A DNA stretch of 41,464 nucleotides from assembly GCA_937923485.1 (NCBI GenBank), contig CALDUE010000060.1, positions 1 to 41,464 of the forward strand, given 5' to 3'. Positions 21,884 to 36,582 of this stretch are shown here, piece after piece. The stretch is from an uncultured Saprospiraceae bacterium (GTDB taxonomy: Bacteria; Bacteroidota; Bacteroidia; Chitinophagales; Saprospiraceae). A model generated the notes under the pieces. It made no database searches. It was not told the origin of the DNA and was given only the letters and a program-made list of their open reading frames with translations. Numbering within the stretch: the first letter of the stretch is position 1; every line of letters begins with the position of its first letter. Position numbers and translations under genes: made by a program.

Positions 21884-21930
21884 GGGTTGATTGTAGACGA
21901 GTTTTGTTTGAGTGGTGGCCAACCTTCAAC

Positions 21931-21962
21931 TGGTTAACCAATTTGTGGCAGCGACAAATTTA
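21931..21962 (-). promoter_or_regulatory. Candidate promoter and autoregulatory operator of the GntR gene
   Basis: The minus strand carries TAAATTTG (plus 21955-21962), matching the Bacteroidota -7 consensus TAnnTTTG, about 72 bp before the ATG; no clear -33 box is seen. Just inside lies the perfect palindrome TGGTTAACCA (21931-21940), with AA and TT further out. This resembles the TTGGTnnACCAA operators of the UxuR/ExuR branch. I did not find a clear second copy before the other cluster genes. Confidence 0.45.
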
Positions 21963-22540
21963 CACTTTATTCTGTATTATCCTAAGATGTTAGTCATAAA
22001 GTTCCCCGACTCTCGGAAACCTGCCTCATATAGAAGCTTTTGTAAATGTCTAACCTTAGTTCTGCCTGGTATAAAGGTACGTATTATCGATGTTATTCAC
22101 TTTGAAGTGTGTCCCATATCTTGGCCAAATAGCATGCTCAGGGTATTCGTTTAGCCACGTGTAGCTTGTTTTGACGAAAGTCGAATACTAGGAATTGTAA
22201 CGCTTTGCTTACAGCAGAACAAGCTAATTCCATTGGTTAAGGCCAGGTGAAAAAGCAATCCATTATGTGGCAATGGATCAATACGTTGTGTCTTATTTGT
22301 GTGCTACCATGTATTGGAGCTACAAATCAATCGTACCGATACGTCTGACATTATCCAAAGTGCTCAGGTTTTTGATGTAAGGCAATCCATATACCTGTGC
22401 CGCCCAGTCGCTTAATAGCAATCGGCTGGATCGCGTCGTGATGTTAAGACCAGTGTGATCCTATTTAGTCGGGCGTTGAGGGATGTTAGAAACGATGCAG
22501 TGAGACATGAGCCTCTTGCCAGCTCCTAAATTCAGGGCTA
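21963..22540. other. Gene-poor region upstream of the repeat array
   Basis: No convincing gene is present. A nonapeptide-scale inverted repeat, TAGCTTGTT (22162-22170) with AACAAGCTA (22218-22226), and a 27-codon signal-peptide-like frame starting at 22264 are visible, but neither can be assigned. The region may be decayed sequence between the GntR gene and the repeats. Confidence 0.5.
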
Positions 22541-22842
22541 TGAACGATTCGGTTCTGCATGCTTCAGCGTGCCTGCGATACGTAACAGCCTAAAGGCTGT
22601 TGAACCGAATACTTCTATGAACGATTCGGTTCTGCATGCTTCAGCGTGCATGCGATGTGTTACAGCCTAAAGGCTGAAGAACCGACTACTTCCATGAACG
22701 ATTTGGTTCTTCATGCTGCAGCTTGCATGCGATGCTTAACAGCCTAAAGGCTGTTGAACCGAATACTTCTATGAACGATTCGGTTCCGCATGCTTCAGCG
22801 TGCATGCGATGTGTAACAGCCCAAAAGCTTCTAGATACACCT
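22541..22842. repeat. Tandem array of 77-bp structured repeats (3.7 units)
   Basis: Units start at 22541, 22618, 22695 and 22772, exactly 77 bp apart; the last breaks off near 22842. In unit 1 an outer stem ATTCGGTTC/GAACCGAAT (22547-22555, 22602-22610) encloses AACAGCC/GGCTGTT (22584-22590, 22595-22601) and a first hairpin region, which in other units reads GCATGC ... GCATGC. The unit can fold as a three-way junction. Some differences between units keep pairing (C to T opposite G). Open frames crossing the array are artefacts. Two more units follow the next gene. Confidence 0.9.
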
Positions 22843-22953
22843 ACTCGGTTGAGACTTTTATCGGTTCCATTAAACTTTCTACTTTCGATCCAGTCCAAGA
22901 GGTTTGCGATCTGAGATAACCAATCTCTAGTTGCTGATCCAAACTGAAAGTCT

Positions 22954-23565
22954 ATGTGGGAATCCATCAAGAAAAATTACGGCTGGGTAATCGTGGCAAT
23001 TTTAGCTGCCCTCCCACTGATGGCGATCTTTGGCAATTTGAATATTGACTTTGCGAACGGCTTACAAATTTCGCTTAAAAAAGCAACCGGCAGGGGAGGA
23101 CGTTCCACCTTAGATATGCTATATCATATTTCGGGCGAATTTGCGATTCGCTGGATGGTGGCAGTCTTGACCTTGACGCCGTTTTATATTCTGTTCGGGG
23201 TGACGAACCTATTTGTACGACAAGCCATGGGAATAGCTACCGCAATTTGGAGCATCTTACACTTTGCGCTATTCATCTGGGGTGCTGGCTTTATGGAAAC
23301 TTTCACGCAGGTTAATTACATCGCAGGTTTCATTGCCGTGCTAATCCTAATTCCGCTACTCTTTACGTCGAACCGTAAGTCAATGACTGCCATGCTTTCC
23401 AAATGGAAAGTGCTCCATCGGTTTACCTACCTCGTCGTTGGCCTGAGTATGCTGCATATTGTGTTGCTAGAGAAGACGTGGATTCCATACGCGGTCGTAT
23501 TGGCGATTGGTTTTGTATTACGGGTTCCGAGTATCCGACAGCGCGTTGAGTCGCGTTGGAAATAG
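22954..23565 (+). CDS. MsrQ-like haem membrane protein (ferric reductase-like domain)
   Basis: This 203-residue protein has about six hydrophobic segments and resembles MsrQ, the b-type haem membrane subunit of the periplasmic methionine sulfoxide reductase MsrPQ. Matching blocks are GEFAIRWMVAVLTLTPFYILFG (61-82) and LSKWKVLHRFTYLV (149-162). H103, H155 and H168 fit the haem-ligand positions known for MsrQ, and H58 is a further candidate. No MsrP gene lies in the window, so its redox partner is unknown. The gene stands alone, with 77-bp repeats about 110 bp upstream and 4 bp downstream. Confidence 0.8.
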   Translation: MWESIKKNYGWVIVAILAALPLMAIFGNLNIDFANGLQISLKKATGRGGRSTLDMLYHISGEFAIRWMVAVLTLTPFYILFGVTNLFVRQAMGIATAIWSILHFALFIWGAGFMETFTQVNYIAGFIAVLILIPLLFTSNRKSMTAMLSKWKVLHRFTYLVVGLSMLHIVLLEKTWIPYAVVLAIGFVLRVPSIRQRVESRWK

Positions 23566-23569
23566 ATAT

Positions 23570-23721
23570 TGTACGATTTGGTTGCGTATGCTTCAGCGTG
23601 CATGCGATGCGTGACAGCCTAAAGGCTGTTGAACCGAATACTTCCATGTACGATTCGATTCCGCATGCTTCAGCGCGCCTGCGATATGTGACAGCCTACA
23701 GGCTGTTGGACCGAATCGACA
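23570..23721. repeat. Two further 77-bp structured repeat units
   Basis: Units start at 23570 and 23647, with the same 77-bp period and the same orientation as the array at 22541-22842. The AACAGCC-type hairpin is kept (ACAGCC/GGCTGT in both). Outer stems differ slightly but largely pair. The first unit begins 4 bp after the MsrQ-like stop codon. Confidence 0.88.
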
Positions 23722-36533: not shown

Positions 36534-36582
36534 ATCCGAAATCCGAAATCCGAAATCCGAAATCCCACATCCCAAATCTCAC
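36534..36582. repeat. Heptanucleotide tandem repeat (ATCCGAA)
   Basis: Four perfect ATCCGAA units (36534-36561) are followed by three altered units (ATCCCAC, ATCCCAA, ATCTCAC) that run into the stop codon of riboflavin synthase at 36579-36581. Such arrays vary by slippage and could change the 3' end of the ribE message. Confidence 0.9.

Follow-up and report, generated by a model that had tools for sequence, protein, structure and literature searches.

What are the 77-bp repeats that lie on both sides of an MsrQ-like gene in an uncultured Saprospiraceae bacterium, and how did they come to be there? The window analysed, 41,464 nucleotides in length, makes up the entire contig C60 in a draft genome of 3.31 Mb in 216 contigs that is 85% complete. 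The reading preferred here, to which we assign a probability of roughly three in four, takes the units for tandem repeats of a REPIN/BIME-like element, hairpins that would have been spread by a RAYT, amplified in tandem at msrQ and given a role in 3' untranslated regions.

Two arrays of direct 77-bp units, four and two in number, flank the gene on the forward strand. Array 1 (22539–22829) was delimited by TRF (22538–22829, period 77, 3.8 copies, score 465) and by alignment, its fourth unit being truncated; array 2 (23568–23721) was delimited by TRF (23570–23716, period 77, 1.9 copies, score 224) and by its sequence, the unit start at 23570 being the boundary given in the initial annotation. 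The six units align without gaps on one strand with a mean column identity of 89%, and core-pattern scans returned 6 and 4 matches against 0 in shuffles. The six same-orientation units of period 77 described in the initial annotation were thus confirmed, with the correction that unit 4 is incomplete.

Each intact unit is built from one 28-nt module arranged as an inverted pair. The module consists of a 10-nt head (CGATTCGGTTnn), 2 nt, a 6-bp stem and a TTYA loop; the heads of a pair are mutually complementary and form the outer stem. With a covariance model built from 18 modules (R1), both modules were recovered in unit 1 (22545–22612; left 22545–22572, + strand, E = 3e-11; right 22585–22612, − strand, E = 5e-9), unit 2 (22622–22689; left 22622–22649, +, 3e-11; right 22662–22689, −, 4e-7), unit 3 (22699–22766; left 22699–22726, +, 5e-8; right 22739–22766, −, 5e-9), unit 5 (23574–23641; left 23574–23601, +, 1e-8; right 23614–23641, −, 5e-9) and unit 6 (23651–23718; left 23651–23678, +, 1e-8; right 23691–23718, −, 3e-8). 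Unit 4 (22776–22829) retains an intact left module (22776–22803, +, 3e-11); its right module is degenerate, without an R1 match, and the alignment ends at about 22829 with the right half gone. The fold proposed in the initial annotation, an outer stem enclosing two hairpins, is predicted for five of the six units (z of −2.7 to −5.1, unit 1 giving −5.1); that of unit 4 has no outer stem. Within the arrays an 11-nt linker (about ACTTCYATGWA) separates consecutive pairs; as it is present in both, one array may have seeded the other.

Searching the window against Rfam returned only tRNAs, the repeat having no match above the gathering score. A CRISPR reading, which the initial annotation had already set aside, was rejected on sequence: no variable spacers separate the units. 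Elsewhere in the window, a stretch of about 600 bp (21923–22538), long for this contig, extends from a gene for a GntR-like regulator to array 1 and contains no convincing ORF; a heptanucleotide tandem repeat (ATCCGAA, 6.4 copies, 36534–36578) lies immediately beyond the stop codon of a gene on the minus strand that looks to us like riboflavin synthase alpha; and the gene content, for instance a match to a T9SS sorting domain that falls just under the cut-off, points to a Saprospiraceae-like host in the Bacteroidota.

The gene between the arrays (22954–23565, + strand) encodes a putative heme-binding membrane protein of 203 aa. It scores 28.8 bits against Pfam Ferric_reduct (cut-off 28) and 55 bits against NCBIfam MsrQ (cut-off 130), so that 'MsrQ-like' is a fair description. 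Its stop codon ends at 23565 and the next unit begins at 23570, the 4 bp distance noted earlier; the conserved head of unit 5 begins 8 nt past the stop. No canonical terminator was found 3' of msrQ. Because it lies between 77-bp direct repeats, the gene could be lost or amplified through recombination. The msrQ orthologue of a congener (64% identity) has no repeats and different neighbours.

Dispersed relatives of the unit were found initially by BLAST and pattern searches of the genome, and the initial annotation's call to look for copies elsewhere was answered at 12 further loci. At E ≤ 1e-3, R1 recovered 26 modules at 14 loci; the window contributes 11 and the further loci, which are spread over ten contigs, contribute 15. 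Inverted pairs and single modules both occur: contig C124 carries a complete pair of 74 bp with perfect ends, and modules stand alone or in direct orientation on C35, on C205 and at one of two loci on C148 (C148a). Modules lie mostly between genes, and that on C107 may sit inside an ORF.

The R1 search of relatives covered 150 genomes of the family, including this one and one congener, the only one examined. The congener gave one strong match (2e-7). Seven of the 148 others gave one lone marginal match each, near E = 5e-4; these were rejected, their sequences having the look of coding DNA or of hairpins of a generic kind. A sequence pattern run over 298 family genomes gave two matches beyond this genome, one of which (G126) looks coding from its flanks while the other (G092) contains no module. 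In about 85 000 GTDB species the pattern gave 17 matches in unrelated phyla against a chance estimate of about 15; they were dismissed as chance-level, no convincing copy being present among those inspected. No copies were found in the plasmid and phage collections searched. Since the congener holds one strong match and the rest are at chance level, the family appears essentially limited to the genus within the genomes examined. Tandem CAACGGGCTTTAGCCCGTTGTAC-like palindromes with the same loop type were seen in another genus of the family (L155, G131:C258, 1–170).

Whether the stems covary was examined separately for the window and for dispersed copies. The pairing-preserving differences reported for the window units come down to six one-sided G–U cells; compensatory changes number 0, 15 of the 126 cells do not pair, and shuffled versions fare no worse. 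Covariation within the window was therefore rejected as evidence, and the window alone is no proof of selection on structure. A set of ten modules was then considered, located by sequence searches or adjoining such matches rather than by structure, with array 1 contributing one left and one right module and the others coming from dispersed loci. Here five of the six stem pairs show two-sided change, 95% of cells are paired, and the covariation score is 0.763, compared with 0.245 after shuffling and no more than 0.21 when the alignment is slid. A wider set of 19 modules had the same outcome (0.707), several of its extra members having been found with R1 and the set being biased toward the model to that extent. 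On the head-first strand its wobbles comprise ten G–T and no A–C cells, which points to this strand as the structured one; eight of the G–T cells share one column and may be inherited. The proposed selection on RNA or single-stranded DNA thus draws its support from the dispersed copies and none from the window units. The initial annotation had named as evidence against itself the lack of copies elsewhere and of covariation beyond recent duplication; as dispersed copies exist and covary, neither holds.

Published work on REPs centres on Proteobacterial GTAG-tagged families. In the broad sense of REP and REPIN, the module is a short, repeated extragenic palindrome (26 copies, 14 loci) with a conserved hairpin (five of six pairs covarying), and it occurs as inverted doublets forming a larger hairpin and in tandem clusters that include flanking sequence (window units, C124, C148b, C76). 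With 26 copies in a draft that is 85% complete, it falls short of the hundreds expected of a high-copy family. No GTAG tetranucleotide stands at the foot of the stem; the heads read CGATTCGGTT, with GTAG in the right head of unit 2 only. The CGTC-tagged pattern (CGTC tag, stem of 8–9 bp, CCA-like tail) is likewise absent, the stem having 6 bp and no tag. We regard the family as a new one of REP type, belonging to a kind of system that is already known.

REPINs are inverted REP doublets, with doublet peaks at 71 and 110 bp (Bertels & Rainey, 2011; PMC3116915), compared with a period of 77 bp here. Like REPINs and the BIMEs of E. coli (PMC3116915; PMC8266576), the present elements are mostly extragenic inverted imperfect palindromes that form a larger hairpin and occur singly, in pairs and in tandem clusters including flanking sequence. 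They differ in that the head is CGATTCGGTTnn instead of GTAG at the stem foot, the two heads of a pair are complementary to each other and base-pair into an outer stem, the copy number is low and the transposase is a putative one. With the GTAG- and CGTC-tagged superfamilies (Di Nocera, 2013; PMC3733652) they share a 6-bp stem (6–13 bp in those families), a short loop, placement downstream of genes and occurrence as dimers and groups; neither tag is present, and the loop is TTYA. TnpA_Y1 subclass 2.6 is associated with atypical REP-like structures, mostly in Bacteroidetes (PMC6006769). Compared by description, these resemble the present family in their Bacteroidota host, the lack of a GT[AG]G tag and the presence of copies elsewhere in the genome, but they are defined by a flanking subclass 2.6 gene, a linkage not seen here.

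Five Y1_Tnp matches were found in this genome, and model NF047646 adds a third clear RAYT, on C137. The three clear RAYTs (C15, C84 and C137) have HUH and Y motifs that look intact by eye, and have flanking inverted repeats of their own; R1 gave nothing significant around them. A head-only matrix gave marginal matches beside C15, C137 and C207 and beside two congener genes (p = 0.015–0.057 per 150 bp; combined about 0.009, post hoc). The RAYT link suggested in the initial annotation is thus weakly supported: RAYTs are present, but none is flanked by significant family matches in this incomplete genome. A 168-aa protein encoded between the C35 copies was considered as a RAYT and rejected, being DUF2846-like instead (below the Pfam cut-off).

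In two genomes of the same order (G302 and G301), short Y1 transposases lie among inverted hairpins with TTYA/TRAA loops. At one such locus (L115, G302:C270, 780–2360) a 143-aa Y1 gene is embedded in tandem hairpin arrays with a period of about 201 bp and TTTA, TTCA and TRAA loops, and its stop codon TAA appears to be supplied by a hairpin loop (GGGCTAAAGCCC). Across 78 Y1 loci, the loop type seen most often close to the gene is TTYA/TRAA (10 in 44 kb), whereas farther away 4 TAAA-class loops were counted in 130 kb; 5 of the 78 loci contribute to the count, which leans on L115. A RAYT-like gene of the congener (L134, G075:C269) is preceded by repeats of the form GTA(A/G)-CYATGGG-TTTA-CCCGTGG (2002–2019 and 2234–2253), one of them a GTAG-tagged REP with a TTTA loop. 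Orthologous RAYTs of the two genomes (L147, G000:C137 and L150, G075:C184; 82% identity) have related but distinct flanking repeats (GATCTNNAGATC with GTCCTG); the transposase is thus conserved as its REP families diverge.

In the preferred reading, a Y1/HUH transposase of RAYT type would have copied the element in the form of a single-stranded DNA hairpin. We infer this enzyme at the level of its class, because the RAYTs lack significant family matches and five loci lie behind the loop count. The msrQ arrays would then have arisen by tandem amplification of a pair together with its 11-nt linker, through slippage or recombination.

A further regularity concerns stop codons. At 9 of the 14 loci a head lies 0–15 nt past a same-strand stop in the sense orientation: 8 nt at msrQ, 15 and 2 nt at two loci on C35, 2 nt on C117, 7 nt on C76, 2 nt on C30, 6 and 0 nt at C148b (convergent genes), and 0 nt at C148a and C205; the congener copy also lies at 0 nt. 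Such placement is expected for 2.7% of strand-positions in the intergenic space of the window, or about 5% per locus. The binomial tail, with two heads per locus allowed, is about 6e-9, an approximation in that the background is from the window and the genes are ORF calls. In many cases TAA or TAG directly precedes the head (right modules of C124 and C148b; C103, C205, C148a; G075:C342 in the congener); if these bases reflect an insertion target, the target could by itself give rise to the adjacency. In E. coli, REPs in 3' untranslated regions affect translation and mRNA stability. As related in PMC12306157, Liang et al. (2015) proposed that 260 of 496 E. coli REPs act within 15 nt of stops; the present elements share that distance and the sense orientation, are unrelated in sequence, and would affect translation by analogy. 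Hairpins behind stops would be transcribed into the 3' untranslated region, where they may damp translation, shield the mRNA 3' end, or both, and an inverted pair between convergent genes could serve both genes.

The same placement admits two readings in which function outweighs mobility. A tagless REPIN-like family with pairing heads may have been domesticated as a 3'-untranslated-region regulator, its modules being retained chiefly in the sense direction just past stops, its pairs between convergent genes serving both and no cognate transposase being left; we consider this unlikely. Also doubtful is a host-selected RNA element of the 3' untranslated region, acting as a terminator, as a stabiliser or as a brake on translation, that spread and is retained for what it does as RNA, its mobility having ceased or being of secondary importance. 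It would account for the nine loci directly past a stop, for C148b and C205, where the element takes up most of the gap between convergent genes, and for the G–U but no A–C wobbles on the head-first strand. However, neither array 1 nor C124 follows a stop codon, the neighbouring genes seem unrelated to one another, the congener msrQ has no orthologous copy, no terminator-type T-run was found after the hairpins, and mobile REPs share the same location bias.

Movement by a DDE transposase, as a MITE with terminal inverted repeats of about 10 bp (CGATTCGGTT...AACCGAATCG), is improbable. Complete pairs such as that on C124 do resemble a 74-bp MITE with perfect ends, but no target-site duplication was seen at six loci inspected by eye, half-MITEs leave the lone or direct head-plus-hairpin modules (C35, C205, C148a) unexplained, and the inner hairpins covary around a fixed loop. 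Plain tandem duplication of one accidental palindrome into a minisatellite, free of selection, would suit the window units, with their lack of compensatory change, and is very improbable given 12 further loci whose copies have covarying stems. The boxes of integron attC sites read RYYYAAC...GTTRRRY. Recombination sites of that type are hardly credible: folding repeats do lie on both sides of one ORF, one of them a few bases past its stop, but their ends (CGGTT...AACCG) have the opposite polarity, the tandem units contain no genes and the copies lie behind genes on scattered contigs.

Read as REPIN/BIME-like copies, the units represent a compact, covarying and tagless family in a Bacteroidota genome. 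It shares two characteristic features with the REPs of E. coli: inverted doublets arranged in tandem, and a position no more than 15 nt from stop codons. If the stop-codon placement reflects function, the family would provide a case outside Proteobacteria in which the translation brake known from REPs could be examined. In related genomes, the hairpins with TTYA loops next to Y1 transposases offer a lead to the matching enzymes.
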